Assembly: GCF_018143015.1 (NCBI RefSeq)
Contig: NC_054758.1
Span: 21,916,501 to 21,980,500, forward strand
DNA: 64,000 bases
Origin: Lytechinus variegatus
Lineage: Eukaryota; Echinodermata; Echinoidea; Temnopleuroida; Toxopneustidae
Direction of reading: 5' to 3'
Below the pieces are notes generated by a model. It did not search any database and was not told the origin of the DNA. It was given only the letters and a program-made list of their open reading frames with translations. Each line of letters starts with the position of its first letter. Position 1 is the stretch's first letter. The translations under genes and the position numbers were made by a program. Positions 17,313 through 45,732 of this stretch are shown here, one piece after another.

Positions 17313-18180
17313 CGTGCAAAAAGAAATGAGCAGAGGTTGAGATGTTGTCCGTTTGGGCAAATGCCTGTCTGTTTCTCGGACTGGCGCCCGTGTTGCAAAA
17401 ATTATTACCGTAAGCTGATGGAATCACTGCTTCATACCGACAGTGACAGGATTTAGCGGTTGTAGGTATAAATCGCGCTCTAACACTCTAAAACTGTGTT
17501 CTTTATCAAAAAGCTGTCCTTCATATTCATTTTCGCAAAAGAATATAAAGTTAATTTAAATCATTGTCTATAGTTATCCTGTTTATGTTTAAAATACTTA
17601 GAAATTGGGTTAGGTTATAAGGTTACCAAATTATCAGGGCAGAAAATATATATTTTTTCTGATTTTGCGCGTCGAGCTGGCATTATTTGATCTGTGAGAT
17701 TATGTTTTTGATGACATTCATTGTGTTCACAGCAATAATTATTAAACATTGCGCACGCGCCGTGCGCCGCATGAATTATGTAGATCAGTGAATAACTTAC
17801 CGCTACACACGAGCAGTTGCATAATATATACAGAGCAACTGCCCATGTTTAATGGTCCATAATATACTGACTTTTTTCTTTTTTGGAAAGAGTATGAAGT
17901 TATCTACTGATATACTGAATGTACAATAAAAGTCATTATCATGTATTTCTTGACATTTCATTTACTTTTTTTCCCATCCCATAGCTGCTCGCATAGACCT
18001 ACGCCGTCACAAATAACAAAACAAAATCTCACTTTTTTCTTTTTTGGTGGGGGATGGATTTTCCACTGGATACGCAACGGTACAATTTTTCAAATTATTT
18101 TTTTCTGCTATTTTCATAATAAACTTTAAATGATTTCGCCTGTGCACTATTATTTTTTTTAAGACAACTTAACAAAATTA
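17313..18180. other. No recognised feature
   Basis: AT-rich. No coding pattern, clear repeat or RNA gene was seen. Confidence 0.4.
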
Positions 18181-18355
18181 CATCTCGTCATCATCATCAT
18201 AGCATCGTCACCAACTTCATTCTCATCTTCATCACCACTACCACCATGACCTGCCACCATCATTACCATTATCATCATCATCACCGCCACCATCACCACC
18301 ACTATCATCTTCACCAAGATAATTTTCATCATCATCATCATTGCCATCATCGTCT
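18181..18355. repeat. ATC/CAT microsatellite
   Basis: Imperfect cat/atc triplets over about 170 bp, followed by T-rich sequence. The Met-rich minus-strand frame across it is an artefact of the repeat. Confidence 0.85.
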
Positions 18356-19240
18356 TTCTTTTTTTCTTATTTTTTCCCCTTCCCTTCTTTTTTTCCTTTC
18401 TATTTTCCTCCTTTTTTAGAGGGGCATACCACCACGCCCCCTCACTGGATATCGGCCTCTAAATATGTTTGTTGTTGTATATAAGTTGGCGGATGCCTCA
18501 TGAAATGAAATAAGAGAAAATAAGGAAAAGGAAACTAAGAAGAAAAAAAAACAAGAAATGAGGAGAAGAAAAAAGAAAGCCAAACAAACAAGAAAAAACA
18601 ATATCAAAATTTTGTTGTAAAGTCTTCTACGTCAGTTTAATAATTATGTTTTCAGTGAAATGAGAACATAAAAGAATTGAAACAAGTAAGAAGGGTTATA
18701 CATTGTAGCAAAGAAATAGAGGGAAGCTCCGAGACAATAAAAAGGGTGAGAAAAAGAAGACTTAATTTGAAAACCTCACAACATGTACGAGCATAATAAA
18801 AAAAAAACTGGAATAAGCGAGGACAAGTAGCTGAGGGACCCTCCCCCTCTCTCTCTATTTATTTATCTATCAAACTCGCATATACAAGAACTTCTTACTA
18901 ATCAAAATATTGCGAGCAAAAAGCACGAGCTGACATTTTTTTTTAAATATTCAAAACTTATAGAGAGACGCATTTTAAACATTCATGAAACTTATTAATC
19001 ATTCATTTCCAATCATTCGATTGCGACAAATGATCTGAGAATTTAGTGTTTTTAGGAATTCATTAAAAGCATAAAGTTGTATCTCAACATTAAAATATTG
19101 CAGGCGCAACGCATGAGCTAAAGCTTTATACAAAGATTTTAAAAAATGACATTTTAAGTATTTTTGGTAATCACGAAAAAGATTGATATTTCATGAAAGA
19201 AAGCTCAAATCCCGAGGAGGAATATTTTTATGAATTGACT
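18356..19240. other. No gene; simple and decayed repeats
   Basis: Purine/pyrimidine-skewed runs at 18356-18600. Inverse-oriented remnants of the GCTCGC repeat family occur near 18908 (gcgagcaaaaagcacgagct) and 19103. Nothing coding was seen. Confidence 0.4.
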
Positions 19241-19242
19241 TT

Positions 19243-19786
19243 AAAAGCCGGGGCCACTTCCATTCACGAGTGGATACCATGCGCGATCATGGGGTCTCAA
19301 AAAGCACCCTAAACACGTAATTTCCTGATTCTGAAAATGCACCCCTTAACAAGTATTGACGTGTACCGTACCCTTGACAAGAATTGGAAACAAAACGATA
19401 CTCTTTAAATATTCCCTGAAATGCACAAGTACAGGAATGTTTATTGTTACGGGTCCTTCGGTCGTCGGCTTTACCTTTATTTGGTTTAGTACGACCCCAC
19501 CTTCTACACCTCGCGCAAATCGGACTCTAAACACGAAGTTTTGGGGCAAAAAGGACATCCTTTATAAAACATTTTAATTTTGTTTTATCATCCCCGCAAA
19601 TTCGACCCTAAACACGTAATTTTCCTCGCGAAATAGATACCCTTTTCCCATTATTTTTGTGTTTTTGACACCCTTATCACGTTACGTACGTAACGTGCCC
19701 TATCATGAAAAAGACATCCTTTTTACGTGTTTTTTTGGTCGCGCATGGTATCCACTCGTCAATGTAAGTGGCCCCCCCGGGAGTCG
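19243..19786. mobile_element. 544-bp inverted-repeat element
   Basis: The left end contains acgagtggataccatgcgcg. The right end has cgcgcatggtatccactcgt, its exact inverse, inside arms of about 45 bp that begin ggggccactt. The interior has repeated 'aaacacgtaattt' and 'ccctt' words but no reading frame of interest. Confidence 0.75.
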
Positions 19787-20029
19787 TTGAAGTGGTAGGG
19801 ACACCCCCCCCCCCCCCGTTGTTATGCATTACGCCAATATGGGACCAAATGATCCTTCATGTCCGGCGCGAAACTTATGCAATAAATTAAACTTTATTTT
19901 TTTGAAAAATTTAAAGCTTGCGCTGTTAACTCCAATCGCTTTCACCTGAATTTGCGATGAATGCTAGCGTTATGAAATATATCATTATCAACGTCTGGCG
20001 AAAAGAATAACCAACCGATCACCTGACGA

Positions 20030-20121
20030 GAAAGCGTATCACGTGATCTGCATAACAGCTTCGATCGCGAGTCAGAAGTGAAGAGCAACTGCCAAGAAAA
20101 TCAGGAAAAAGTCGTCAAAAT
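20030..20121 (+). promoter_or_regulatory. Likely 5' UTR exon and promoter edge of the CARF-like gene
   Basis: GC-richer than its surroundings, with an E-box (cacgtg, about 20041). It runs to a textbook donor, caaaat|gtaagt, with the intron starting at 20122. It lies upstream of the CARF-like gene with no other plus-strand gene between, so a non-coding first exon is the simplest reading. The transcription start cannot be located by eye. Confidence 0.35.
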
Positions 20122-20412
20122 GTAAGTTTCCCTTAATATCTTTCATTTTATTTTTGTTGCTTACAATGAATTTACGATCCTTAATTATAATATTGGCCAA
20201 AAAAAGAAATAGAGAGCGTACTTGTGAAATAATTTCGAAATATCCTGTACTGAAAGATTTCTAACCCCGCAATTCCACTGATGTCGCCTATGAGGTCCAT
20301 ACATGTAATGTTTGGACCTCATTGGTACTAGGAGTGCCGGTAAGTAGCAAGAGTTTGTGGAATATAAAAATAATAAAATAATAATCCGATAAAAAAAGCA
20401 CATTTTGCTTAC

Positions 20413-20521
20413 CTCGGCCTCGAAAGTGACTTCGCTTGTCTCTTCCACGGAAATACAAGGAAGCCCGTTGGTGGCGCTAATAATTTCACAACCTTGATTC
20501 AGCTCCTCGGTAATTTTATAA
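20413..20521 (-). CDS. Candidate isolated coding exon, minus strand
   Basis: On the minus strand, an acceptor (gatacag) at 20522 is followed by 109 nt that translate in one frame without stops as YKITEELNQGCEIISATNGL and then PCISVEETSEVTFEAE. A consensus donor, GAG|gtaagc, follows. Codon use and the acidic, well-mixed composition look coding. The phase is 1 in and 0 out. No family was recognised and no neighbouring minus-strand exon was found, so it may be one exon of a long-intron gene or a gene fragment. Confidence 0.35.
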
Positions 20522-20976
20522 CTGTATCTAAATTCTTTGAATGCGCAATCCTCATGATTAATTTACTAATTATGGGCACCAATTCATGAAATGCCTTCAA
20601 AAAACATAATTAATGATTATTATTGGTGATGATAATACTCATTTGCATTAATTTAAAAAGATGACTGATAAAAAAAAAATGAAAATAATATACGTGCCTG
20701 GAAAGAAACCAGCAGTACAAGCTTTGACGAACGTCAATAATACGTATACGGTATACCAAAGTCTATACAATGAAAAGATTGGACACTTCACGGACTTTGC
20801 GTAATGCCTTGCGTCGATATGCGTGTAAAATAGTGTAGGTGCCTATTCTTTCCCTTGTGTCTTTGATATGAATATAAATCGCGCGCCCTCTTCAGGAGAA
20901 AATTGATATCAACGCTGACTGATTTCTATCTCCGTAAAATCTTCACTAAAGATCAAGAAAATATACATATTTTTAG

Positions 20977-21017
20977 AAAGAAACTTCAAGAAGTCACGGA
21001 AGGATCTAAATGATTCG
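20977..21017 (+). other. Candidate second 5' UTR exon of the CARF-like gene
   Basis: A 41-nt stretch between an acceptor (tatttttag) and a perfect donor (attcg|gtaagt). Joined to 23040, it carries no long frame, which suits a non-coding exon. It is supported only by splice-site quality. Confidence 0.25.
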
Positions 21018-21399
21018 GTAAGTGTCATAGCAGGATGTGGAATATTTATTTATACATAATATTTTATGTGGGCAAAAGCCCACTGTATTTTTCGAAGTGT
21101 AGTGGTGTGTCGCGTGCGTATGACTGATAATCCTTCACTCGCGAGACGATATGAACCCATGGCTCCCTGGGAGCAAGCTACCCGTTCCGCTGAACTCTTG
21201 TTGGTTCCACTCACCAATTACAGAGTCAGAGACCAGGGTGACCGGATTGAAATATGAAACAATCGAAAAAGCATGGTGCATGAGCGGATTGACCCGCGAG
21301 TATAAACCAGGCCAGGTCTAAATTAGTCTAGGCTACTACTCTCTAGGCCTAACTTGTAATGTTAATTTTAATTTAAAAAATCAACAAAGTCAAAAAACT

Positions 21400-22030
21400 C
21401 AATATGTGAATGACAGAATGAAGGAGAGAAAGAAAAGAGGAAAGAAAATAGATGGATTGACTGAGAGGAAAGAAAGAAAAAATAAAGGGAAAAATGTAGG
21501 AAAAAGAAAGAAAAATCTAAAAGTAAGAAACTATGTTAGAAAATTAAAAGAAGGAATTGAAGAAAGCATAAAAAAGGTTTCTGTCATTCTTTAAAAAGAA
21601 AGGAAGGGAAGATGAATGAATGTGTAACGTTAAAAGAAAAAATAAAGGAGAGAAAGGAAAAAGAAAGTAAGAAAAAAGTAGAAAGAAAGAATGAAGGAAA
21701 AAATGTTTACTTCATTCTTGGAAAGAAACAAAGAAAGAAGAAAAACAGGAAGGGAAAGAAAGGATAAGGGAAAAGAAAATGAAGGGAGGATAGAAAAAAA
21801 TAGTGGAAGGAGAGAAAGAACAAAAAGGGAGAAGGAAGCTTAGAAACATTTAGGGAAAGAAAGATAATTTAAAAGGGAATTAAATAAAAAAATAAGAGAA
21901 AGAAGGAAAGAAAGAAAAATGAACAGAGATAGAAAGGATCAGGAAAGAAAGCTAGGAAAGATTGGAAATAAAGATAGATGAAACAAAAAAGGCAAGCAGG
22001 AAGGATAGAAGGATGAAGAAAGGAGGACAG
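21400..22030. repeat. 630-bp purine-rich tract (GAAA/GGAA type)
   Basis: The plus strand is overwhelmingly A and G with GAAAGAAA and GGAAAG words and very few pyrimidines. The Lys/Glu-rich frame through it is a composition artefact. It lies in the inferred 5' intron of the CARF-like gene. Confidence 0.75.
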
Positions 22031-23079
22031 ACAAGAAAAAGTTCACACTTCAAGCAAACAAAAAAATCCAATCTAACAAAAATCTTGAATTTAAAAAATT
22101 TTTTAGAAAAGTGAAATGTTTTATGAATAAATTTCAAAGTGAAACATTATCAAAAGGTTGGATTTCAAAGCTAAATTTGGTATAAGTATCCAGCCCGTTA
22201 CGATGCCGCCGTACATGTATACATTGTACAATCACAGATGGGAAAATGGAGTATTCTTCTGCACTGACAGAAACTTTAACGTCAGCAATATGCCACGATA
22301 TCGGCATCAACGCATTGACAAGCGAACCGACTTTCATACATACAAAGTTTGTGCCCATCCGCGAGTGTGCGTTTACTGCCTGTGGCCGTGCCTAGTAAAG
22401 AGTAACCCAGACGCCCAGAACCTAACCCTTCTCCACCAGGATTTTCTCAAGGAAGAGGTAACAAAAACACCCCCAAATTAATGAGAAAAAAAAAAATTCA
22501 TGCACCCACCTCAATTCTATTGATGCCTGTCTATTAGGTTCTAGGCTCCCATGGTGGATGCAGTAGCTCGCCCCTGAACAAAAAAAATCACCTTTTATTA
22601 TTTGAATAGAATAGTAAAGAAATTCTATGTCGATTTTGGTACGAGCCTCGTACCGTACTACGAGGTGATTGAGAATTGCACACTTGTTTTGATGCCATGT
22701 TGTGCTGGGCACTGGGAGGCTTGCAATGCGCATGCTTCCTATATTTTCATTCATGAATTTGTGGAAAGTGGAATTTTTTACCCCACTCTCCCCTACATCT
22801 CTAACTTTTTATCCCTACATTTTTAGATTTTCATAGTCAGTGCCAGCCCACTCCAAAATGCCCACTTTTGAAAACTATTTAGCTAATTTTTCATCCATTT
22901 TATCATAATTTGTTGTTTTTTAATTTTACCATACTGTACATTATGCACGTGTATTTCCAATTTATGATTCATCCATGGGTTTGCTGAAAAAAGAATCCAT
23001 GTTGTGTCAAGTTGAGCTTTGCTTCATGTTATATTCCAGATTCAAATTTGGCTGTACGAAAAGTTGACAATTGTACCCC

Positions 23080-26000
23080 ATGGACAGAAATGGAGGAGGA
23101 AAAGTTGGTTGTTAAAAAAATGAAATAATAGCTGACAAGTATCATACTTGCATCTGAATTTTCATGTTTTTTAAATGCTACAATGTAACATGATTCATGA
23201 CTTGAGTGGAAGATTGAATCTCACTGTAATGCAGTCAAAGCTTTTCATCAGATTAATGAGAAACATTGAAGCAAACCAACTTTTTCTCTGATATTTCTGT
23301 CCTGTTTCAGTGTCAGATGAATTAGACGTTGAATTTCCTCCACCATTTGGCTATGTACGTGATATTGAGAGTGCAGAGACTCTTCGCAGACGATTCGAGC
23401 AAAAGTTTGGTGTGCGATTTTCAACATACAGACAAAGCAAAGACTACGGAAAAGAAGGTAAGAAAGGATTCTAAAACATGTAGTTTACTATCACTTGAAT
23501 TGACATTCATGTACATGTATTCAGAGGTTTTGAGGTTGTGTTTTACAAAGCGTGAATTTAGGTATTGAATAAAATCCTTGAATTCTAAGTTGCATGAACA
23601 GATTATATTCACTTTGTGTAAATGAGAAGTTAGTCTACCTGCCCTTTCACACGGTAGAAAATCGTAGTTTGAATGATGTTTCCAGTGAAAAAGTACATGT
23701 AAGCTAATGACAAATTTTTAGCATGTAAGAAACCAAACTAGAATCACGAACGCTAATTACAATCACAAATTTAAATACTACTGCGGAGGTGTTCGCTCAA
23801 ATTACGTTACAAATTTTCCATGTGAAAGGTCTGATGATTCTAAAGGCGAATTGCAATTGTAGGGATTGATTTTGTACTTTTATTTCTTTCCAATCTTATT
23901 CATGAATCATCCCCTTTTTCTAATAGAACACCCCTCATTTATATTCACCCTTTTCATCCTAACTTTCTATTCTTTATGTACAGCTCTCTATACACTATCT
24001 GCTGTACACTCCTCACACAAGGTTCTTTTGTATTTATTCACTCCACCATCCTTCATACAGCTTTCTTCACTCCTCTCTCTCTCACTCTCCCTCTCCTTTC
24101 ACCTCTCCCTTTCTCTGATTGGTTGTAATGTTAAGTTGATGCACTCAAGCTTAGATAATAATTTGCATATAGTTTGAATATCTTTTGTTTGTATATTTGA
24201 ATATTCAGTTATACTTTGTTCCATTGATTTACATTTATATAGGAATATTGATTTGCCTTAAATAATTTGCATGGAATGTTTCCAAGAATGCGACAAGGTT
24301 TTAACTCTTTAAAAACTGGGAGTTGGCCAGGAAGTTCTCAACATGATAGCATGTCTGTTGGGCTGTCTCTGTAAAGAGTACTTGGAATGAGATTTTGTAA
24401 GAATCCCGTACTACACAATCATCATTACAATGGTGATGGTTCAAGATTCACGTGTGAAAAGGCCCTACATTTCATGAAGTCTAAACATGGGGTAAACCCA
24501 TTTGGTCTACTTTCAGTCTTGGTCTATATTTGCCATGTGCATTTTGTCTAGTATGCACACCACTTAGTCTAATTCTCATTGCACAGTTGGTCTAATTTCA
24601 CTTCGTCTATTTATTCAATTGAAAATTTGATGACAGTAAATGTATTTTATGTGTAGGTAAATACTGAATACAAGAAAGCACTTTAGGATTTATAGTCAGC
24701 CTGATTTTCCTTTTATACCTCAGGCACTGCCTTGTTTAAAGAAGTCCATTGTATAGCATGTTCCATGCATTTCTCCTTTACACTGTAGATATCATAGATA
24801 TCTATTAAAAGATACATAGATATATATCTTTAGATGATGGATACTATTTCATATTTGTTCTTCTAAAAATAATAAATAAGTATATAATACCTGCACATAC
24901 ATGTATTGCTTTTTCAGATATCAAAATTGATCATCACAAGGTATGCTGGGAAGATGGCTCCAGACTTCGTCAAGGTCACCTTGTATTTGATCACATACCA
25001 TACATTGTGATTGGTATAAAGACATTAGATTGTCAGTATGGGAGGGACAGGCATGTTGCTAGAAAGAAAAGATCTCTTGCACAGGTTAGTTTTTTTTTAT
25101 ATTCAAACCAGTGAGGGGGACATGAAGTTCTGAATGTGATTAACATTAATTGAATAAAATTTATCAAAATTTATATTGATAATGAATGGGCTGATGACAT
25201 GAGGCCCCACTTCCCTTTTTTATGTTATTACTTAAAATCATATTTCATATTTTGATACTATGTGTGTATAGTCAACAGCTGTGTGATGAAAAAAAATGGT
25301 GTCTCCCTTGTACCACTCAAAATAGGTTGCAGCAATGATTATCTTACAGGTACACCTGACATCAGGAGTCAATTCAGATTTATTGTTTTATTCCTTTATT
25401 ATAAATTTGAATTTATTATTTATTAGAATGTAAAAGAAAAAGTGGGGATAAAACATTAGTTGCTCATTTGCATGTTTATGAAGTCATGGGTAAAGAATAA
25501 TGCTAAGCTTTAAAATGTAATTTGTTATTCCTTGTCTGATATGAAATTTTCTGTGTTTTGTCTTTTTCTGACATCTCTTTCAATCATTTACATGTGCACG
25601 TAGATTGGATTAGAATTGTTGACCTGTATAAGTGCTGTAATGAGAGGTTCCACTGTATATTTGCTCAGACTGTGACAATTGGTCCTGCTGACAATGCACA
25701 CATTAAGCCAAATATAAACCTAAACTTCAAACCTTGCCTTATACCCGTCTCACACCATGCGATCCAGTGCGATGCGATTTTTCAAGAAATCACATTTTGC
25801 ATTAAATATAAAAGTTCCAAGAAGTAAAATGATCTCATTTAAAGTTCGGCATGTTGGTAGGAAAACTGAAATCATATTTTTACTTGGCGCAAGCCCTACG
25901 GTCTGAGTAAAAACCAAACCAGCTTCAAGTCGCAGCCGATGATGACGTCATTACAATTCGGAATATAATTTGTTTTTGTTCATTCAGGGACACTCTATTA

Positions 26001-29000
26001 ACTGGACTGAATTTCGATTTCACTAGCCCTACCACTTTTCAGAACTCCATATTATTTTATTAGTTGGAGTATCCATATAAAATTTTATCACAATAAATTT
26101 GAAATTCAGATCGCAACGAATTGCATAGTTACAACTCAATGGGGCAACGGACTGAATAGTAGCGTGAGCCTGACTCACTGCAGTCATTCTGTTTTATAAG
26201 AGCACACTTGTGTTCCCTCATTCTAAGTTGCATGCTTTTATGGGTGCATTGTGGTACAGTCGTTCGGACTATCTTCTTATCAGAAGATCATGGGTTCAAA
26301 CTCCGCCAGGGCTTCACATCCTTTGGATAGACATCAATCTACACTTTACCACTTTCCACATACCTGGTATGATGTGAAATACATGTACATGCCTAGCGCT
26401 TAAGAAAATTTTTATTATAATAATATATTCAATATAAATTCTACAAGTGGTGTATTGATTTTAAATGGGGTTTTTTTTCTTCAATTTTCTAGGAAGATGA
26501 TCAAAAAAGGAGAAAACGGTTATCTGGCAAGAAGGTGGACTGTCCAGCACAAATATCTTTTAGAGATATCTTGAAGTTCCCAGATTATAAAGTGAGTTCT
26601 GTTTGGGTCTTCACACAAGCCAGAAGAATATGTTTTGTCATCATCAAAGTTATTTTCTGCTTTTATAACCTAATCTTTTTTAATTTAAACCTTGAATTTG
26701 GTTTTAAAAATGCGCTGAAGGTGCATACATGTAATTGAGGTCAAATTGGTACCAAGAAATTTTGAGAAAAAAACATGGTTTCACTACAAAATGAAGGTCA
26801 TTTTCATTACATTTTTCAAATTTTTACACATTTTCCAGAATAGCTGGGGGTGCTACTTAAGGAGAACAATACACGCAGCACCCCAAGGAACGTTTCGGGG
26901 GCGCTTCAGTCTGTATATCCTTTATATCATAACCATTTTAGGGACACAAATTTGATATCATTCAAATTAATTCGAACACTGAATTGCATATATTGCTTCA
27001 TTTCTTTCTTTGTTGTGTTTAGATCGAGAGCAATACAGTATGGAGAAGAAAAGCTATGTCAGAAAAGCTCAGGAAATCCCTCTCTACAGGATCAGATGTT
27101 AAAATAGAGAGACGAATATATGTCAAATTTCCAGAAGCAAGTGATCACAAATGTGTGAGTGTAATAATAATAATAATGATTAACGTCATATTTTACCCAG
27201 GGAAGCCACCTCCGTTCTGAAAACAGTTCTACAAGCTGGCCTTGCTTAACATGGTATTACCCTGCTTTAGCACGGCTACCTTGATCTGGCGCTCAAGCAT
27301 TTGAGGAATTTCTTTCTACTGGATACTCGTTCACCTCACCTGGGTCGAGTGCAGCACAATGTGGATAAATTTCTTGCTGAAGAAAATCACGCCATAGCTA
27401 GGATTTGAAACCGTGACCCTCTTTTTGAAAGGAAAGAGTCAGAGCCACTAGACCATGATGCGTCCAGAGTGTACAAGAATTAATTTGTTTGAAACCAGCT
27501 ACACAAAGGAGCTAGGCCTATTGCATGTTCAGTTGCGGACTGGATGCAGCTTATTTCTGTTCATGAAAGTTTGAAGACTAGAAGAATACAGGGGAGCATT
27601 TCATGAAAGTTGTCAGCACTGACAAGTTGACTTTCTCTGACAGTTACCATAGTAACAGTCAGAGGCAAGTGCCTCACAGCCAATCAAAACCAAGGATTTC
27701 ACTGAAGTTGTCAACACCGACAATTTAGTCAGTGTGGACAACTTTCATGAACCCCCCCCCCCCCCCAGATTGACAAAAAGTTAAACTTTTGATCACAACA
27801 CACAAAGAAATCTTGAATAGTTCCCTTGAAATGTTTGGCTATTGCCTTCTTCAGCAATGTGACTCGATTTGACTTAAGTGATTTAGTGATTGATGATCGC
27901 ATCAGATTACCTTGGCTCCTTGTCCAAACCTTGTTGATATCCATGCGATGTTCAGATTGTCTATGATCCTATCATTGATCACTATATCATTAAGGTCAAA
28001 TTACATGACATTGCTGAGGAAGGCTGCAGTCAATAGCCAACAGTTTTGAGGTAACTACTTCAAAATTTCTTTTTCTGTTGTGGTCAAAACTTAAGCTTTT
28101 TATTTTCAATTTAGACAGATAGACTTTCATGATCGTAAGAATACAAATTATTTGAGTTAACTTGTATTAGGAGGACTCCGGCTGCACTTAATGAACCATG
28201 AGTTATGAACGGGATAATTGAATAATGTAGATTTTTTAATGAATTCATGAATGTAATTATTGCGGGGTATGCGCTATTCTGATTTGAATTTATGAAAGGG
28301 TTATAAAATTCTAAAAAAGAATTTAAGAAGAAGATAGATATTCAGTTCTTATTTAATTTTCATACATCATCAATCTACAGCCTCTGAGCCAGAAGATTTC
28401 CAATTTATTTTTAAAGAGCCTGCAAACTACCTGATTGGTGATTTGTTATATGCAAGGGATTCTTTTTGACTGGTTTCCTTTTGTTCCTGCTAGATTTGGA
28501 GCATGTTTATTTGGATTCTCAATTCATAGTTTTACAACTAGTACTAGTAGGAATAATTATCAGATCTGCTTTATAAACCCCCTCCGCCACACTATGTTCT
28601 CTTTAGGTGTATGTGGTAGTTGGAGTGAAAGGGCTATTTCTTGTAAAAGGACTTATTTGTGTATATGTACAGGCAGTTACAAAATACTATGTACCTGAGA
28701 GACATATCCTTAAGCCCTAGGTTAGAAATTAGCCTAACAGGGTCCTGTTACACAAAGGTTAACGATTTTTCGTACACTTGATTTTTACAATTGATTGTAC
28801 ATTGTAGTCTATGCAATCAATCGTAGAAAAATGTGTTACAGGCCCCAGATCTTATTTGTGAACTCTTCCTCCCCCCCACACACACGCACAAGCTGTTCTT
28901 AAACTGTGTGTTTGGGAGGTGGTAGCAGGTTATTTCTTATACAAGGAGTCAAGGACGTAATTAACTTATCCAATTCTTTTTGTACATGTTCTTGCAGGCT

Positions 29001-31129
29001 GTTGCAGAAGACTATGTGCCTGATAGATCTGTCCTTGGACACCAGGTCTTACAAAGCAGTTCTTGTGTGAGTGGAGGAGGTTCTGATGGATCAGGGATTC
29101 AAAGTGAAGTACAGACACAGGTTCTGACTATGGAGCTTGCTGTGGAAGATGTAATGCATCAGATGAGCTCTGAGACTACAGGAGTACACTATAGGTATGG
29201 ACACCTTATATTAAAAGCCAGGGGCTTGATTCTTTAAATCTTTACATAGGGATGACATTGAGTCGAATGCACCAGGTGCATTAGTGAAATGAGCCCATGG
29301 CCTTGAATTATTATATTTCTTCTTTTTTTGCTTTAATTTTATGTTTTTTTTAAAAGAATCTAACGTAAGGGCGAACTTCCTCTTGAATTTCATATGGTGC
29401 TTTTCAAGTTACCAAACTTTTTTCATTACATTTCAGGGAACCAGACAGAACATCTATTCATATTCAGCAGTCCCCTCCGTCTACCGAGGCCAGCAATACC
29501 TCGACCACAGCTGCTGAGTGCAGCCAAGAGGTGATAGTTTCTGACCCATCAAATACAGCTGTTGATGGTACAAATGCAGCTAGTCACCAGAGGAAAAAGA
29601 TGGAAACCTTGCAGCAACTGACTCATTCTACTGATCCTATGATCCAAGTCGACCAGTGCAGAAGACAGCTGGACGATTCCCTTCTTTTGATGCATCCTAG
29701 TGTGATAAATCAACAAGAGAGTCAGGTAGATTCACTTCAGTTGGCCGAGGATATCAATACTACAAACTTAGCCATTCAATCTAGGAGTAAGGAAATAGAA
29801 CCATTTCATTTATCTGAGGATGGTGCAGATCAAGGAAGCGATTGTAGAAGACAGATGGTACATGTAGATGTACTTAGATTGAGTGACAGTAGCAATGATG
29901 CAAACCAATGTGGTCGTCAGCTAGATGCTGTTCAATCGTCTAGGCAAAGTGATGGCTCAAACCAAGCTAGTCAGATGGGTTCATGTCAATCGACCAAGGA
30001 TAGCGATGGTTCAAACCGAGCAAGCCAATGCAGAAGACTTCTTGAGGAACTAACTGAAGAGACTTATACCATACAAGATATATCTATCCTAGATGCTCTA
30101 CAGGAACAACTCAGAAACACCCTTAGGGACCTACAGAAAGCAAAACAAGAACGGGTTTTGATTCCATCAGGACAGACAAGTACAGATATACTTGATTCAC
30201 ATACACAATTAGGAAAATCCTCCAATAGATATAATAGCAACAAGCCTAGTGGTAAAATTCATCCGAACACTACTGGGAAGAGTTGTACGTGCAAGAATAG
30301 AAGTTGCAGAATTTGTTCTGCAGACGAGAGGGTTGAGTTTGGTGAGGTCATGCGTGAAGAACTGTGTTCAAACCAGTCGGTGAGTAGCAGGATCATTAGG
30401 GAAGCACAGGCACTGATCCTAGAAATGTTCCCTCTTATGCATGGGTTTGAGGAAACCACTCTAGGTAACCATCTTCTCTTCTCGGCAGCCCAAGGAGAGT
30501 TCGGCCAGCTGATGAACGACGGGAAGGACCACTGGATTTTTGTCACGTCCATTTCTTGCGCTCCAGGAACGGTCAAGTACTATGACAGTATGGGTGCTCG
30601 GACGATTCCAGACATCATACGCAAGCAGATAGCATGTATCGTGTGTTCTCAGGACACCCAGATCTCTGTGGAAATCCAACCGGTTCAGTTGTCCAAGGAC
30701 TTCACCGATTGTGGTCTTTTCGCGATAGCTTTTGCTGTGAGTGTCCTGTATTCTGAAGATCCGGCATTGGTTTGTTATGACATCACCTCCATGAGAGACC
30801 ATCTCTACCATTGCTTCCAGAAACGTAGTCTCATACCATTCCCAAAGATTGATAAGTCCATGGAGCGAACCGTAAAGAGGACAATAAGTGTAGACGTGTT
30901 TTGCCTCTGCAGGATGCCCTGGTATGCTATCGCAAAGGAATCAAAGATGAAGATGGCCCACTGCAGCATGTGTGGCGAGTGGTGGCACTCGAACTGCTGT
31001 GGCATTCCTGATCCGGGTCAAAGAAGCAGCTGGAAGTGTCCTAGATGTGAAGATGTCCAGTCGGCAGTATCTGCTCTCAATTCTCTTCAGTCAGTAGTCT
31101 ATCCAAATGAAAGCCCAGGACACAGCTGA
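23080..31129 (+). CDS. CARF/ALS2CR8-like DNA-binding protein with Ulp1-like peptidase domain and PHD finger
   Basis: Exons 23080-23107 (tentative start), 23311-23457, 24918-25084, 26493-26591, 27023-27154, 28998-29194 and 29437-31129 are all GT-AG and phase-compatible. They give 821 codons including the stop. The start MDRNGGGKV is inferred from phase and its donor (gttgtt) is weak. Residues about 10-190 contain FGYVRDIESAETLRRRFEQK, a WEDG..L.....VFDHIPYIVIG strand, LDCQYGRDRH, KKVDCPAQISFRDILKFPDYK and ERRIYVKFP. That series resembles the CARF (ALS2CR8) family, thought to bind DNA. A polar Q/S-rich linker with repeated QCRRQ motifs follows. Then comes a C48-type fold with His622, Asp640 and Cys682 (DHWIFV, YYDSM, DCGLFAIAFA), and a C4HC3 PHD finger at the end. 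It is probably nuclear. Target, partner and peptidase activity are unknown. Confidence 0.75.
24480..24640. repeat. Small array of ttggtcta-type words
   Basis: ccatttggtctac, cttggtctat, ttttgtctag, cttagtctaat, gttggtctaattt and cttcgtctat follow one another. This is the same family as the larger array at 34335-34760. It lies in an intron of the CARF-like gene. Confidence 0.6.
25790..25975. repeat. Dispersed repeat shared with 40165-40370
   Basis: Both copies hold ttttgcatt.aa, aaagttc.g.catgtt.gga, gcaagccct.cggt and caagtcgcagcc.atgatgacgtcatt in the same order. It is intronic and non-coding. Confidence 0.6.
26240..26440 (+). mobile_element. tRNA-derived SINE, decayed
   Basis: tRNA-like head with gtggtacagtcg and B-box-like gggttcaaactcc, then catcctttgga and ctttaccact body words and a tail of ttattataataat. 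It ends about 50 bp before the exon at 26493. Confidence 0.6.
27160..27478 (-). mobile_element. tRNA-derived SINE, minus strand
   Basis: Reading on the minus strand: a tRNA-like head (about 27478-27395), the body words cactcgacccaggtgaggtgaa, and a tail that on the plus strand is the taataataataatga at 27160-27180. The tail begins about 5 nt after the donor of the exon 27023-27154. It is the same family as 50173-50455. Confidence 0.7.
27595..27752. mobile_element. About 160-bp MITE, tcatgaaagttgtcagcac family
   Basis: Inverted ends (tttcatgaaagttgtcagca and its inverse gtggacaactttcatgaa) and an internal cagttaccatagtaacag palindrome. The copy at 54393-54562 matches closely throughout. Confidence 0.75.
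28739..28851. mobile_element. About 110-bp MITE, tgttacacaaaggttaacg family
   Basis: It starts gggtcctgttacacaaagg and ends tgtgttacaggcccc. The inside pairs imperfectly around acaattgattgt. Relatives lie at 33113, 44448, 48826, 48946 and 56379. Confidence 0.65.
29437..31129 (+). CDS. Large terminal exon: linker, C48 peptidase domain, PHD finger
   Basis: A single 1,693-nt exon holds the whole C-terminal two thirds of the CARF-like protein. It follows a phase-2 junction (AG|G) and ends at TGA 31127-31129. In order it has a Ser/Gln/Asp-rich linker with near-repeats such as SDGSNQASQ and SDGSNRASQ, a helical stretch (DALQEQLRNTLRDLQKAK), a Cys-rich knot (CTCKNRSCRIC), the Ulp1-like domain (His codon 30530, Asp 30584, Cys 30710) and the PHD finger (about 30898-31053: CLC, CSMC, HSNC, CPRC). 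One long exon with this domain set, against small exons upstream, suggests capture of an intronless, perhaps transposon-derived, segment. Confidence 0.85.
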
Positions 31130-31139
31130 CAAGTGCACT

Positions 31140-31730
31140 GCCCCCCCCCCCCCTCCATCACCTATGGAAAGTAGAAGTTAACTTTATTTCCTCTATTAGC
31201 AGATATGATGGAAATTAAGTTGTGGGGCTAAGATCTTTGCTATTCTATGTTCTATCAAACTTACTGAATATGCTTCCAACTGCTGTGGGTAGCTGCAAGA
31301 GGCTTTTGCCTGAATTCACAAAGAAGGTTTTGAATCTGTTGGCTAGACCATAGTGTTTGTCAATACATGTACATGTATGATGAAATCATTATGCATAATT
31401 CAGTGCATACCCATTTAAAGAGAGTCCATTGATTTTCATTCTCTAAGAGATTGTGAATTCAGATATGCAGCTCCTAAACTGTGGAACCAATGTCCAATAG
31501 CATTAAGAAAGTAAAGTATTCGATGTGTGCATATCGAACTGGGTAGATTCAAAGGTCACATTGGTCATTACTGAAATAAGTAAAGTAACGTCTTGCAATG
31601 GTGGAGGCATTAATTATCAAAGCAATATTTGTCTCCCCTGCTTAGCAGACCGTGACTATAGGCTCTGCTTTTCAGATGGCGGCAGCGACGGCTTCAACAT
31701 GGAAATCTTAACCAATGTTAAGTTTTTAAA
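31140..31730. other. 3' flank of the CARF-like gene; no further gene seen
   Basis: A C-run just after the stop codon, then AT-rich sequence. It probably includes the 3' UTR. No polyadenylation signal could be singled out with confidence. Confidence 0.3.
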
Positions 31731-31734
31731 ATGT

Positions 31735-32130
31735 CATCATAACTTAAAAGAGTAATGGGCCTACTTAATGAAACTAAGACATAATGGTTATTACGTATTA
31801 CTGAACATCCTTGAGTTTCAGGTCAAAGGTCATATAGGGTCAATTAACTTTCGCCCTGTTGGGGGTATTTGTTGATTTCCATCATAACTTTTAAAGTTTA
31901 TTGATCTGGTTCATGAAACTTGGACATCAGAGTAATCAAGTATCACTGAACATCCTGCATGAGTTTCAAGTCACATGACCAAGGTAAATGAATTTTGGCT
32001 GTGATTGGGAGTATTTGTTGAATTGCCATCATAACTTTGGGAGTTTATGGATCAAATAATCAAGTATTACTGATCGTCTTGCAGAAGTCTTCAGTCACAC
32101 AATCAAGGTCAAATATTTAGGGTCAATGAA
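31735..32130. repeat. Three degenerate units of about 125 bp
   Basis: Each unit runs ccatcataacttt, atgaaactt.gaca, aatcaagtatcactgaacatc, gagtttcagtcac and aggtcaa...gggtcaatgaact. The copies diverge moderately. This unit style is common as tandem repeats in marine invertebrate genomes. Confidence 0.65.
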
Positions 32131-33112
32131 CTAGTATTAAATCATATCGTGAATGGTGTTTTTTTGTGAATGATTATTCGAGATAGCCGTTTTCAAAGTC
32201 AGCACTGCCGGCATATTGAATTGTGTAATGCGGGCGAGACTGCCCGAGGTGCTCCACTTGTTTATCCATGTTATACATGTACCTCCCGTACGTAAAACTT
32301 CTTCCGAGTCAAACAGATTTATATGGTTCCAAAGTTTTGACTGTAATAGATTGGATGAATTTGTGCAGAATTTTCCAAATAAACACAGGTATTCCAATAA
32401 ATAGTGCCAATCAGTCCAACTCTTCTTTAATTTCTGTATTCATTAGCGTCAGTCTGTGTAATTTGTGTCTGATGATAGCGTATGATTCATTTTGAGAAAT
32501 TAATGCAAGTGGAACACCCATTCCATGACAATTGTCTGATGTTTGGAAATAAGTTATCTTCTTTATTAGCAGATAAAGGTCAACAGGATGTAGTTGAACA
32601 TAGTTTTGCATGTTTGCCCCAAAAATATTCAAACCCTTAAAAAATTATGTCTTGCAGTCATGCATAGAGCCTACATTGATTTAATTCATACATTCAATGT
32701 GGTATCATGGAAATCTTTTTATGAGTGTTAGCAATGTTTTACTCATGAGAGTGTATGTCACTTATGATGATGATCTTTGGTAGTTTGAAACCCAATGATG
32801 AATTCACTTGTTTAATGAATACCCTCCCCCATTAAGTGCACGTTGAGTTAAAGGGAAGAGTAAAGAGAGAGAGAGAGGGTCATGATTTATGACCAAATGC
32901 CAAAACAGACCACAAAATTGTACTTACATCTCTTTTATGTTTTTTTTTCTTGGTCAAAGTTGTGAGACTTGCCTAGATATGTTACAAGATAGAGTGAAAG
33001 AGAGGTGGTTTTCACTGGATGCTTGATACAAAGCTACTGAAAGCCTTTCATCTGATTGGTTGAAAGCAAAATACACAATCGACTCTTGTTTCATGAAATG
33101 CCGACTTGGCCG
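32131..33112. other. No recognised feature
   Basis: Intergenic, AT-rich. Short reading frames on both strands lack coding character. WDR77 exon 1 could lie in this interval or the next but could not be picked out. Confidence 0.35.
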
Positions 33113-33240
33113 TGTAACATGAAGCTTAGCAATTGATCTTTGGGCCTGATTTTTACAAACGATCCTACTCAACAATCAATGCAATTGATTGTAGACATCA
33201 GCCCAGCAATCAATCACTAAGTGTGATGTTACAGGGCTTA
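33113..33240. mobile_element. Decayed MITE, related to 28739-28851
   Basis: The bounds gtgtaacatgaagcttagca and gtgtgatgttacagggctt, and the internal caatcaatgcaattgattg pairing, match the family with many changes. Confidence 0.5.
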
Positions 33241-33627
33241 CATGTATGGTGTGAAAGTGAGACTTCCCTTGGTATGTGTTTAGTGTTGGTTCCTGTCACA
33301 CAAAGAGATGTGATTGATTGCAAAATTTGGAACAATTATTCAAATTTAGTAACATCCCATACATGTGAGTGCATTTCTCATTGATACTGATTGGCCTTTG
33401 TCAATTGATTTTAAGTTGTCAATTTATTTTAAGAAAGGTTAGGGTTAGGAAATTTGAAATTTAAAAAGAAAAACCAAACAAAACAGAAAGAGAATACAAT
33501 TTATTACAAATCTTGAGTTAAAACCAAAGGAGTCTGATTTGTGATAGTTAGATTATTTTGTCTGGAAAGTGTTGAAGTTATCATACTATCACAGGGCCAA
33601 AACCGACTCCTGATTGACCATTGACAG

Positions 33628-33710
33628 ACCTTTGGTCAATATGGAGACTGATGGATCTGTGAGATCATGGCTACATCTGGACTTACTGGAAGACTTGACT
33701 GAATCTTGTT
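33628..33710 (+). pseudogene. Decayed partial copy of WDR77 exon 2
   Basis: 33646-33708 aligns with the start of WDR77 exon 2 (34918-34980). The blocks gatgg.tctgtga, tggct.c.tctgga and actggaagactt are shared at roughly 80% identity, with 2-bp indels that break the frame. The sequence 5' of the match does not resemble the intron that precedes exon 2. It could instead be read as a run-in ending DRPLVNMETDGSV. That pattern fits a cDNA-derived fragment better than a genomic duplication, but the piece is short. Confidence 0.55.
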
Positions 33711-34334
33711 ATCTCTTGTTCATTATTTAGCATCACTTGTCCACCCCTCATCTGGGATTGTATTCTGAAAACGTTCTTATCTCAAATTTGTTCTTAGCAA
33801 CATCATGATCTCAAATACATTGTAGATATTCTAAAAACGTTCTTATCTTTCCCTTTTTTTTTCTCTCTCTGTACTACATGTACATGTTTTCCATGCATGT
33901 TAATTTATAACTTGCCCATAATACCTACGCGCCCTAGAAAGACGAGAACATAACATGCGTTATTGTGAACTATGTAATTACACCAGTATACACGTAGTGT
34001 GCGTAATATTCTCTTGATATAAGGAATGGTTCTATTGGTTAAACTGCCAATATATAAGTGTATCTAAACAAAATGGGCATGTTGAAGATGAGAAGGGGGC
34101 AGTCCTTACAGAGACAAGAATGCTTTAAGATTGTCAGAATACCGATTTGCAATGATTTTAGCGTCTTCCCTATCTTGGTGAGATATTAAGATAAGAAAAG
34201 AAATACAAATTAACGTTTTCAGAATACCTGTACCACCCCTTGGGAGTTGGTATGGTGGTGACTCCTGATTTTTACCTGATTGCTACGATAGCAAGCAGGC
34301 CGAGGACCTAACGCTTTTTACATAAGATCCTCTT

Positions 34335-34760
34335 TAAGGGTAAATTGCCAATTCGTCTTCTGCCAATCCGTCCACTCACCACATGGTCTACTTTTATTTA
34401 GTCTAATGCCATTCCGTCCATCAACATTTCATCTAACAACCATTTGGTCCATTAACCATTTGGTCCAACAATCACTTTGTCTAATCACTATTTCATCAAT
34501 GACTATTTCGTCTCAAAACCAGTTGGTCTAATATCCATTTTATTTTCATTCATTTTGCCCAATTAACACTCAGTCCAATTAGACCAAATGGTATATGGAA
34601 TAAATGGCTTTTGGACCAACTGGTTATTAGACAAAATGGTGAGTGGACGAATTGGCAATTAGACCATGTGGATAGTGGACGAACTGATGGTAAACCAAAT
34701 GATAGTAGACAAGTTTGAAATTAGAGGAACTGGCATTAGACAAATTGGAAATAAACCGTC
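34335..34760. repeat. Foldback array of degenerate 12-14-nt 'ccatttggtcta' words
   Basis: The first half (34335-34580) repeats forms of ccatttggtcta. The second half (34585-34760) repeats the inverse, such as ttagaccaaatgg and tagacaaattgg. More than 25 words are recognisable. The two halves could pair imperfectly. It sits just upstream of WDR77 exon 2. Confidence 0.75.
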
Positions 34761-34795
34761 TGGTAGTGAAGATGAATGCCTTACTATTAGGGCAC

Positions 34796-34858
34796 TGAGT
34801 GAGAATCAAACCCGGGTCACCGTACTGTGAAAGCTGTACCAACCAAACTATCACGCCT
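34796..34858 (-). mobile_element. tRNA-like head of a SINE, minus strand
   Basis: On the minus strand: ggaggcgtgatagtttggtt..., then ggtttgattctcac as the B box. No matching acceptor stem closes, so it is a SINE relic rather than a tRNA gene. Confidence 0.5.
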
Positions 34859-34918
34859 CCTCCAATGCTGCCTTGAAATTTTCATTAATGAAGGGAATTA
34901 ACTTTCTCTTTTTCTCAG

Positions 34919-37900
34919 ATGGGTCTGTGATCTTGGCTGCCTCTGGATTGACTGGAAGACTTTGGACCGGATCCCTGTGGTACTTTGAGGACCCATCCAG
35001 TGCTCCGGATGTCAACAGAAGCAGTGCAGGAGTACGGACTGAGGCAGGAATAACAGACTTAGAATGGATTGATGAAAACAGACTAGCTGTTGCATCAGAT
35101 ACAGGTAGGGTTCTTCTCTGCATAACTCAACCTTTATAAGTATATAAACTAATATATGAACTTAAAAAGCATTATTTCAGACCAGATTTAAAATGTTTTT
35201 TTACATCAAAGTCAAATTTTGCCACTTTGAAATCAAACAAATTGTTTTGGTGAGAAGTATTCTGCCTGTATCTGACACCTCCTTCCCTCAATATTTTGTT
35301 TTGAGACAAAATAAACCATTGTTCAAGTTCGGGACATGTTTTACAATATTGAAGGTTGAAGATAAATGCCAGTTGTGGTAAAGATTTCAAAATGAGTTCA
35401 TAAAGAATCCAATGAAATGACCACGATCAATTGGGCAAAACAAATTTTCAGAGTATTTCATTTCTGGTGTCTATTTGGAACAATAAAATATGGATAATAT
35501 AATATCTAATCATCTGTCCTCATTACAGGTGCAATCGAGATTTGGCAACTTGAGAGCAACGCATTCCGTAATTTATTTTATTTATATGAGCATGATAGTA
35601 CAGTGAACTCCGTCAGCGTCAACTCAAATAAGACCCGTGTCATCAGCGGCTCGTCAGACAGACTGTAAGTATATAAACACCAGATATATAAATGGTGACA
35701 AGCTGTGGTTGGCTATCAAGATAAACAAATTAGGCTTTTTTTAATACTAAATAGCCTTCAATTAATTTTTTTTTCTGTTCTGTTTCTGTTTATGGTAACT
35801 CCCGTAGGAACTCGGCAGGACAGCATTTTGCTGGTAAACGCCAAGCTGGTATATAACACCGGGAAACATTTTACATCTACAGTGTAGGTTTAATCAGTCA
35901 ATAGTGGCTGATGTTATAGATGACAGGTATCACTCTTGGGTCCTTTTATCAAAGTGAAGACAGTGGCAGAGTTGGGATTTGAACTCACAACCTTGCGATT
36001 ATTAGTCCAATGCTCTAACCACTGGACCACATGACCTTGACAGCCAATCACAGCTTGTCGTTTAGCGTCTATTACCTTGTTTGGTTCTGTTATATATTGT
36101 TTCATTCTGTTCATTTACTCCGATGAGTGCATATCAAAAAGCTTAAGTAGTTAGGATTATTATTGTTTACATGTATTTTGTTTTTGTTTACAGGATTAAG
36201 ATCTGGGATCTTGCTACACAGCGTTCTATTCGTACACTCAACGTCCACACAGGAAAGATTGAACAGCTAGCATGCAGTCCAAATGAATTAGATGTCTTTG
36301 TATCGTGTTCACAGGTATATCATTTATATTCCTTTTCTTTATTGTGCACAGTGTCCCCGTTTACAATAACTATAACCCTAGAACAATGAGTTTAAGGCGT
36401 TTTGATATGTTTGCAAAAATTATACTTCTTTCAATGTCCAAGTTAAAGGTATTGTTTAACTTTGTGAGCAGCCGATTTAAAAAATTCTCAAACCAAGATG
36501 AAACATGTGTACAAGTGCATGTATTAGAACTAATAAACCCTGAAAACAACCATTATTGAAAATGAAAAGCTAAAACTACAAGGCAAACCCCGATTTTGTA
36601 AATAGGCGTCTTATAGACACCTAAATAGTACACATAAGTGTATGGGATGAAATTAAGATGGTGTTTCCGGTCACTTTATATTTTAATTTTTGAAGCACTA
36701 AATAATTATTTTTGAAGGCAATTTTTTCTGGGCTTCATTTTTGTAACACATCACAGACACAGGTGACAAGTGTGACCTTCTAGCTCAGATTTTTTAAAAG
36801 TCAAACCAATGTTAACCAATCACTTTAAGCTTTGAAGAAAACTCCCGCGAAAATTTGAATCTGTTTAATAAAGTTCTACCTCTATGATGATCGGAGAATC
36901 ATAGAAATGATCCAGAATAATCTCAAATATCATAAACCTAGATCTGGTCATGGGCTATCTTGTGCTAATCTTGATTTTATTATTATTATTATTGTTATTA
37001 TTATTATTATTATTTGTTTGGCGTCACCTGTGCCTGGGAGGCAAAAAGCGAACTGAATCACTATGACCCGCAGGTCTCTCCTCCCGATATAACTGATTGG
37101 GGGGAATGCAGGATTTGGGCTCTTAATCGGTCACTCTATGCATTTTCTGTTATCACACCTGCCCTGTAAAAAATTTTCAAATCTTCTCTTAAAACTCGTC
37201 TTGTTCCAACACTAGCATACATGTAGTTAATGATTCATTAATAGTCAGCCCATCTTTGCGCTTTGAAACACCCGTATAAAGACCCCCACATGTATAAAGG
37301 TTATTATTATTTATCATTTATAATGAATTTAATGAAATACCCTTTTCCCTGAGAAAATTAACTTTAATGAAGGCAGCATCACCAAGAAAGCAATTATGAT
37401 ATAAAACCACAAGGTCTGGGGTTCAAATCCCACCACAGCACTAGCATCCTTTGGCAAGGCGTTTATCTACATTTGCCACTCTCGACCCAGGTGTAGTAAA
37501 TGGGTACCAGGTAGGAAGGAATTCCTTGAATGCTCGATGCGCCCGATCAGGGTAGCCTTGCTAAAGCCGGGGTAATAGTATACAGCGCTTAGAAACATTT
37601 CTATTATGCGCTATATGTTGCATATTATTATTATTTTTTGCAGGATGGATTTGTACTATTATGGGATATGCGGAAAGCTAAGCCAGCTCAACGACTACCA
37701 TGTCCGGCTGGTGTACCTACAAGTGTCGTGTGGAAGCCAGGAGAGTCCTATGTTATAGCAGTTGGTAAGCTCTCATAACATGTCTTCTTCTAACTACTGG
37801 TCCAACAAAACATTGTAAACTGTATCGTGCAACAGGAGAATTAGAAAGAAAAAAAATGTTATGTAAATAATGAATGTTTATGAGTGCAATGGACAGAATA

Positions 37901-43122: not shown

Positions 43123-43613
43123 TTAAAGAGGAAGTTCACCCTGACACAAAGTTTGTTGTTAAAATAGCAGAGAAAATATTGCCGAAGGTTTGAGAAAAAT
43201 TCATCAAAGAATTAAAAAGTTATTAGAATTTCAATTACTTGATTTGTGACGTCATATGCGAGCAGCATTCCTACATAGCGAATGGTAAAATATCAATGAA
43301 ATGTCATTTTCTCAGAAAATTGAAAATGGTTCTTACTGTAACTTTTGTATATCAATAGACAAATCATTTCACACCCGATCGTGAATAGAAAACAAAATTA
43401 AGTCATCGGGAACCATACAAAATTTGAAATTCATGCATTTTATATTACATAACATATGGGGCAGCTGCTCGTTTAAGACATCACAAATCCAAAACTTTGA
43501 ATTCTAATAACTCTCTTTATCTTGAATGGATTTTCCTCAAACCTTTGGCAAAATTTTTTATTATTTTTTCTGCTATTTTTACAACAAACTTTTTCAGGGT
43601 GAACTTCCCCTTT
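43123..43613. mobile_element. 490-bp palindromic element, copy 1
   Basis: It starts ttaaagaggaagttcaccct and ends with the inverse (agggtgaacttcccctttga). Long arms pair through aaagtttgttgt, tttgagaaaaattcatcaaa and tttgtgacgtca. The copy at 45733-46228 is the same family in opposite orientation. Confidence 0.8.
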
Positions 43614-44447
43614 GACGAGTTCATGATGAAAACCTGAAACCCCTATTTGCTTTCCATCGCTACTGGACAACTGAGGTTGTAAAGCAAAGGCTTCCCTCCT
43701 CAAGATCAGACTTTGACAGGGAGAGAGAGAGAGATACACATGATAGAAGAGGAATGGACTGCATGTACCCAGTGCATTGTGAGGCTCACCAGGTCAATTT
43801 TTTAAATTATTTATATTGCCAATTCTAGATCATTTTGCTTTGTTCAAACCTTCATTGGTTTCAGGGATGGAATCCACCCCCCCCCCCCCTCCCGGGCTGT
43901 GAGAGGGGTCCAAATTACCTGGCTTTATTAATAGGGAGACCACCAGATTTTTCTATCTCATCACCCACTTCATTAAACTCTGATTTTTTTTCATATCTTG
44001 ATGAAAATAGTGCAAAATAAAAATCTACCAAAATCCATGAATTGGTTTTTGAGTAATAATCAAATGGATTTTGAATGAAATTCATCTAAATAATGAGTGA
44101 CTTTTGGACATGAAATTATCTTGGAAGTAAAATATATGTGTCCTACTACTCCTTTCCTATCAGGCAGAGCCCCAGTAAGAGTTTGCACAGAGACTATTAT
44201 GTATAAAGATAATGAAAAGTACAATTGCAATCCAATACCATTATCTCTTATGGGCCGCTGTCGGGTGCAGACCACTCTTTTTAAGAGGAATGGGAAAATG
44301 AGGTACCAATGCCCCACCTGAAATACATAGATTCCTGTGTCATAACGATGGTGTATTTAACGATGGATAAATGTAAGGTGTCCTCCGATATTCCTTTTGA
44401 AAATAATGATTTCCTCATCAAAATACTGAAATGTTCTTCAAGTTGTT
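43614..44447. other. No recognised gene
   Basis: Intergenic between WDR77 and SND1. It has a C-run with ggatggaatcc (43865) that resembles 42610. The reading frames across 44060-44540 have no coding support. Confidence 0.35.
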
Positions 44448-44612
44448 CAGGGCTCCGTATCACAAAGGGTTTTGATGAATGCAAATATGAAAGAACTGCA
44501 CTGATTGGCTCCCAGTCAGTATTATAAACAGAGTGCGGGTGCAACGGTGATCTTGATTGGTCATTGGTATTCAGTGATTGATTGCAAACTTTTGTGTTAC
44601 GGAGCCCTGTTA
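44448..44612. mobile_element. 165-bp MITE, gggctccgtaacacaaag family
   Basis: Ends cagggctccgtatcacaaag and tttgtgttacggagccctg are inverses. The internal gattgg...ccagtcagtatt and ttgattggtcat blocks match 48946-49108 and 56379-56542. Confidence 0.75.
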
Positions 44613-44768
44613 GCAGCTCTCATCAAAGTGTGACATGAATTTTCTTGTGTAAGGGTGTGCATTTCTGCTTTTTCATGACCCTCCCTCCCCCCCCCCCAAA
44701 TTTGACAAGAATTCAATTGGTCCATGGTTGACAAATGAAGACTAAATAGACCCTGTATTCACCTGAAG

Positions 44769-44920
44769 GGTGCTTCATACAGCTGTTAGCAAGTTATGAG
44801 CAACAGTACGAATGACTGGTGATCCTTTCTTAGGAACTAAATCAACACCAATGATAATCTGTTGTGCATCGTACCACAATAAAGGATCACCTGTCATTAT
44901 AAACAGCTTTATGAAACACC
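44769..44920. mobile_element. Foldback MITE, gtttcataaagctgttc family, first of a touching pair
   Basis: The left arm is ggtgcttcatacagctgtta and the right arm is its inverse, ending aacagctttatgaaacacc. It is followed at once by a second family member. Confidence 0.75.
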
Positions 44921-44926
44921 TTCCTG

Positions 44927-45110
44927 GTGGGTGTTTCATAAAGCTGTTCGTAAGTTAAGAGCGACTTTAAGAACGACTGGTGATCCTTTCTTGTGGTAAA
45001 TATGCACCATTCAATGTTCATTTGTGGTAGCTTAGCGCGTAAGAAAGGTTCACCAGTCGTTCTTAAAGTCGCTCTTAACTTACGAACAGCTTTATGAAAC
45101 ACCTTCCTGG
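44927..45110. mobile_element. Foldback MITE, gtttcataaagctgttc family, second of the pair
   Basis: Very good arms: gtttcataaagctgttcgta, then agttaagagcgactttaaga, mirrored exactly at 45060-45103. Its arms are much better preserved than those of its neighbour. Confidence 0.85.
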
Positions 45111-45732
45111 TTTATTACTGTTTGGACTTGAGCCAATTTACACCAATCTCAATGGGAAGGTATTCATACAGCAAACTCTTGGGCTCAATACTGGCCATTA
45201 TTACCCGTATCAGACATTTACATTGGTCATTATTTGGTCAATTGCCCTAGATTTTCTGAATATCAGGAAGGGATAGGTCCATTGTTTGTATTTTCGTCTT
45301 AAAATTAATAGGCCTATCACCATTATCATGATCTTTGCTCCAGATATCTGATTTGGATGATTAAATTGATTGGCTCTTCTTTCCGGAACATCATATATAT
45401 TGCCCTTAAAAGAGCCACATTGCCCTCGTCTAAAGACTCTGCCAATATGATTCTTTTGCTGGCATTATATTCGATGTTCCCCTCAAGGCCAGTCAATATT
45501 ACATAAATATTTTTCATTGTGCCCTTCCGAGGTAGGGTATCTGAAAACACTGAAATGCAAAAAAAAGTGATATCATTGCTTTGGTACTGGAATGCACCAA
45601 AGCAATGTACTTGGAAAGATTATTCAAACTGTTTCCTGCATCATGCAAATTTTCATTTATCAAAGAATGCAAATTTAGAGGGGCAAGGCGACATTGTTGA
45701 GGGACACTTTGTCAAACAAGCAAATTATATAA
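45111..45732. other. No recognised gene
   Basis: An open minus-strand frame at 45326-45550 was considered and rejected. Nothing else was seen. Confidence 0.35.

Follow-up and report, generated by a model that had tools for sequence, protein, structure and literature searches.

A predicted Lytechinus variegatus gene that joins a CARF-type domain to a C48/Ulp1-like domain and a PHD finger

Gene model and neighbouring genes

The window is a stretch of 64,000 nucleotides of Lytechinus variegatus DNA (contig NC_054758.1), and all coordinates below are counted from its first letter. Six plus-strand exons were found between 23311 and 31129, and they are joined in phase at GT/AG sites at all five core junctions to give a core model of 810 residues. 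Splice sites were ranked with a simple consensus against all GTs or all AGs of the 20-34 kb region. On this scale the ranks of the five core donors run from the top 0.1% to the top 6.1%, and those of the six core acceptors from the top 0.2% to the top 4.8%. The first core exon (23311-23457, phase 1 in and phase 1 out) is placed by its splice sites, lies 5' of the CARF match and shows no Pfam match alone. It is followed by three small exons of the CARF (ALS2CR8) type at 24918-25084, 26493-26591 and 27023-27154. A linker exon (28998-29194, phase 2 out), again placed by its splice sites and free of Pfam matches, precedes the last exon (29437-31129), which carries further linker, the C48-like domain, the PHD finger and the stop codon. 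The last exon is part of a stop-to-stop frame of 580 aa (29387-31129). By comparison, the longest frame reached 207 (mean 147) among 100 random 64-kb sequences from a first-order model, and chance was rejected as an origin of the 580-aa frame.

The 5' end of the gene is less firmly placed. The sequence-only reading had the gene run from 23080 to 31129. The core exons from 23311 onwards agree with that span, and its 5' end is unconfirmed: a start at ATG 23080 requires a GTTGTT donor, and there is an alternative start at 22203. ATG 22203 opens a tentative first coding exon (22203-22457, + strand) that spans 85 codons, contains several Cys and His, joins in phase and ends at a fair phase 0 donor (GTAACA). 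This frame has no Pfam or PDB match; it may be the first exon of the CARF-type gene. A tentative second exon (23040-23103, + strand) also joins in phase and contains ATG 23080 in a different frame. Its donor, GTTGGT, is weak (top 23% of GTs). The longer model from ATG 22203, in phase through this weak donor, would have 917 residues.

The linker between the CaRF-type and C48-like domains is long and of low complexity. At 29437-30280 (+) the motifs CRRQL, CGRQL, CRRLL and SDGSN are loosely repeated, perhaps as a decayed tandem repeat. A cysteine cluster, CTCKNRSCRIC, is found at about 30281-30316 (+) ahead of the C48-like domain and near a rise in third-position G+C; the region 30185-30400 gave no Pfam match.

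Two conserved genes lie downstream, and they were counted in favour of a host gene. WDR77/MEP50 (methylosome protein 50) is on the plus strand at 34831-36386, where exon 34909-35118 matches PDB at E about 5e-20; weak WD40 matches are seen beyond this exon. SND1/Tudor-SN is on the minus strand at 49520-57602, where Tudor matches at E 2e-17 and one of three SNase pieces exceeds the Pfam cut-off. Elsewhere in the window, a minus-strand reverse transcriptase match (PF00078, E 3.6e-6) is found at 3976-7848 and scores 27.3 bits, just under the cut-off of 29.6. Its upstream ORFs are in overlapping frames, and the ORF at 7534-7848 is weakly similar to a baculovirus FP domain (E 0.013). This element is probably a decayed LINE. 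Long nested inverted repeats, with pairs as long as 247 nt (93% complementary) and 158 nt (98% complementary), occupy 43123-46228 and 53356-58265 and look like non-autonomous elements; the latter set overlaps the SND1 region.

The CARF-type domain

Pfam profile PF15299 (ALS2CR8) matches residues 54-181 of the 810-aa model with 95.6 bits (E 5.5e-27), and a 199-aa piece scores 100 bits; the curated cut-off is 28.9 bits. The motifs LDCQYGRDRH, DCPAQISFRDILKFPDY and RRIYVKFP had been read as CARF/ALS2CR8-like from the sequence alone, and the profile search on the joined protein bears this out. Each of the three small exons also matches PF15299 singly, as that reading implied they should. The exon with LDCQYGRDRH (24918-25084) scores 33 bits (E 7.3e-8), the exon with DCPAQISFRDILKFPDY (26493-26591) scores 29.8 bits (E 7.3e-7) and the exon with RRIYVKFP (27023-27154) scores 18.8 bits (E 0.0016). 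Thus two exceed the cut-off and the third is under it. The three matches follow profile order (positions 7-46, 58-88 and 90-135). Chance was considered and rejected as the source of the CARF match, given a score over the cut-off and three exons matching in order.

The match covers only profile positions 7 to 136-137 of 235, which is where the likeness to CaRF ends; the later part of the profile is unmatched in the window protein. For this reason we call the product a CARF-domain protein, which may be either a CaRF ortholog or a divergent paralog. In our view positions 7-136 cover the conserved DNA-binding region of CaRF. PMC2877716 presents CaRF as a transcription factor that has no homologs in the mammalian genome, and describes three regions in it: a DNA-binding domain/NLS, an intermediate domain and an activation domain. 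The same source reports conservation of the DNA-binding domain between vertebrates and Nematostella, and each species examined had one similar gene product. The window protein differs in having a PHD finger and a C48-like domain; the main text of PMC2877716 has neither the word PHD nor the word protease.

Other searches with the CARF part gave nothing beyond chance. A PDB search turned up no solved relative: it listed seven sequences with E of 10 or less, each of them complement C5 and at chance level. The mouse CaRF motif RRARYGAGGC occurs 0 times in the 64-kb window with 1.06 expected, a count that is uninformative on binding. Viral contigs held no confirmed relatives of the CARF part, and a degenerate CARF motif was absent from viral and genome contigs.

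The C48-like domain and the PHD finger

The C48/Ulp1-like stretch (30512-30745, + strand) was located by Pfam PF02902 and a residue map. Its PF02902 score varies with sequence context: the full chain gives 9.6 bits (E 0.99), the last exon alone 13.0 bits (E 0.092), the C48-PHD piece 14.8 bits, and two isolated segments 18.6 bits (E 0.0018) and 19.9 bits (E 7.2e-4, the best value). All six matches, one of them a repeat, are under the cut-off of 20.7 bits. None of nine control sequences (one reversed and eight shuffled) matched PF02902, and two of the nine matched an unrelated family at E 0.09-0.15. A phmmer search of the C48 segment against PDB returned zero matches up to E 10. Two single-sequence AlphaFold2 models of the domain had mean pLDDT of 34.6 and 36.1, too low to use.

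The candidate catalytic residues are His (30530-30532), Asp (30584-30586), Gln (30686-30688) and Cys (30710-30712). They are His612, Asp630, Gln664 and Cys672 in the 810-aa core, and were numbered His622, Asp640, Gln674 and Cys682 (an offset of 10) when first proposed. Compared with the Ulp1/SENP peptidases of family C48, the His-Trp, Asp-Ser and Asp-Cys-Gly motifs are intact and in family order. The order first proposed for the four residues is correct, but the Gln sits eight rather than six residues before the Cys, and a Ser stands at Cys-6. The oxyanion Gln of yeast Ulp1 is six residues before the Cys. Because of this Ser, catalysis by the domain is uncertain. With the displaced Gln, a PF02902 score under the cut-off and an empty PDB search, we name the domain C48-like and do not place it in the C48 family.

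The most probable of the competing explanations concerns this domain. It may be catalytically dead and serve as a SUMO-binding or scaffold module in a DNA-bound chromatin reader, which would conflict with our preferred reading at the protease step only. We consider this a real possibility that falls somewhat short of an even chance. The missing Gln at Cys-6 and the sub-threshold profile scores point to a dead enzyme, and the three intact motifs point the other way. In addition, the spacing from Gln to Cys varies among clan members, adenovirus protease having a spacing of seven, and the Gln at Cys-8 might therefore fill the role. SUMO deconjugation is accordingly given here as a putative activity read from residue patterns; it is unproven and is the weakest step of the mechanism proposed below.

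The PHD finger (30896-31051, + strand) is better defined. In phmmer searches against PDB it matched PHF2 (E 3.5e-6), PHF8 (E 9.3e-6) and BPTF (E 4.3e-5). The C4HC3 ligand spacing is complete in the sequence and in the PHF2 and PHF8 alignments, with a Trp ahead of the last Cys pair. Together with the PHF2 match it upholds the complete C4HC3 finger that had been proposed. PF00628 (PHD) gives 16.4 bits for the full chain, 17.1 for the last exon, 19.2 for the C48-PHD piece and 22.1 (E 1.5e-4) for an isolated segment, under the cut-off of 24 bits in every context. The Pfam cut-off is a score limit and not a structural feature, so we still call it a PHD finger on its zinc ligands and PDB match. At the PHF8 positions that we take to form the H3K4me3 cage (Tyr7, Tyr14, Met20 and Trp29), the alignment has Phe, Trp, Met and Trp. 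From the sequence, H3K4me3 binding is a fair prediction for this finger. PHF2 and PHF8, which gave the best PDB scores, differ from the window protein in that the latter shows no JmjC match and has its finger joined to a C48-like domain.

Profile and sequence searches thus back all three parts of the architecture first proposed (CARF, C48 and PHD), the C48 part most weakly. In Pfam terms, CARF exceeds its cut-off while the C48 and PHD parts match under theirs. Among further collections, NCBIfam gave one match for three exons (E 0.16) and PHROGs two matches for three pieces (E 0.22 and 0.28), all chance-like. Confirmed relatives of the C48-PHD part were absent from viral contigs, phages and genome contigs, and the C48 motif was absent from viral contigs. 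The collections searched for relatives hold viruses, phages, bacteria and archaea, and their absence there says little for an animal gene.

Host gene or mobile element

The C48-PHD pair raises the question of a transposon. The sequence-only reading placed Ulp1-like domains and PHD fingers together in some large DNA-transposon proteins, and such a pairing is in print: in PMC2836005, a table gives Ulp1 and PHD as C-terminal domains of the transposase Ginger1-9_HM of Hydra, and Ulp1 domains are reported in Ginger1 and in hydra and lancelet Mutator elements. In PMC6446971, Rehavkus transposases are listed with a PHD finger. The likeness of the window protein to Ginger1-9_HM and related Ginger1 and Mutator transposases lies in this C-terminal pair. 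It differs from Ginger1 proteins, which have an integrase-type DDE core, in that none was found in the window protein or in the three stretches scanned around it.

These precedents allow a second explanation, in which a mobile DNA element encodes the protein, the CARF-type domain binds the element's own ends, and the transposase ORF lies elsewhere or has been lost. Some MULE transposases bind their own ends through FLYWCH or WRKY-GCM1 fingers. The long, undivided C-terminal exon would also suit an element, as would the published Ulp1 and PHD pairs. Against it, the gene has several introns, and six-frame Pfam scans of 18305-23301, 24000-28996 and 31130-36126 found no transposase domain at E 0.1; the 810-aa protein had none at E 1. 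Of the 43 inverted-repeat pairs of 18-38 kb, 25 are listed, and five of these have their two arms on opposite sides of the gene; they are 23-40 nt long and 70-83% complementary. Between the flanks 18000-22202 and 31130-34830 the best inverted match scored 14, which was equalled in 35 of 200 shuffles and is at chance level. The inverted seed matches between these flanks numbered 22 against a shuffle mean of 7.5, an excess that is probably simple sequence. No second copy of the gene was found among the window repeats listed (20 of 33 direct families and 25 of 36 inverted pairs). We regard a mobile-element product as rather unlikely.

Base composition was compared along the gene. G+C at third codon positions comes to 178/534 for the CARF and linker part and to 143/256 for the C48-PHD part (p 2e-9 by Fisher's test, with a boundary picked after the sequence had been read). 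Five pieces of WDR77 and SND1 give 131/312, and the tentative exons at 22203-23103 are as G+C-rich as the C48-PHD part (0.55). Because the boundary is post hoc and the tentative 5' exons are equally rich, the contrast fails to single out the C48-PHD module and is only a hint of composite origin. Two adjacent genes, a CARF-like one ending at stop 29235 and a C48-PHD one from ATG 29600 (the first in the last exon's frame), are distinctly unlikely: read-through from exon 28998-29194 past its donor runs into a stop 13 residues on, an ATTAAA at 29210 could terminate a shorter transcript and counts against a single gene, and third-position G+C shifts within the last exon, but the predicted 29194/29437 junction is in phase (AG/G) with high-ranking sites by the simple consensus in the 20-34 kb region (donor 29195 in the top 2.6% of GTs, acceptor 29437 in the top 0.8% of AGs), and the frame is open from the acceptor to 31126.

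Our preferred reading is one multi-exon host gene encoding a CaRF-type DNA-binding domain, a linker, a C48/Ulp1-like domain and a C-terminal PHD finger, the module being probably transposon-related; we put its chances at about even. The C48-PHD module was probably acquired from DNA-transposon proteins bearing the same pair, or shares common ancestry with them. We infer a host gene with transposon-derived parts. In such a protein the CaRF part would bind a specific DNA element and the PHF2/PHF8-like finger would dock on H3K4-methylated promoter nucleosomes. The C48-like domain could then strip SUMO or a related modifier off chromatin proteins at these promoters. The most complete version is a domesticated single-copy regulator built from a host transcription factor and a transposon Ulp1-PHD module, in which the CaRF domain guides a SUMO-type protease to promoters with H3K4 methylation, so that one chain would be a deconjugase that is addressed by DNA sequence and reads chromatin; this version is in our judgement very doubtful.

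In the literature searched, which takes in few subscription journals, we found no earlier description of a protein combining CARF with C48 and PHD. Public proteomes of marine invertebrates contain several models named calcium-responsive transcription factor-like, and with these the novelty would be lower. Should both the model of one gene and the activity of the enzyme prove correct, this Lytechinus variegatus protein would be a SUMO-removing enzyme aimed at chosen genes, and thus a natural case of gene-specific SUMO removal. It would also mean that the CARF DNA-binding domain has been shuffled into other architectures and tied to transposon protein modules.
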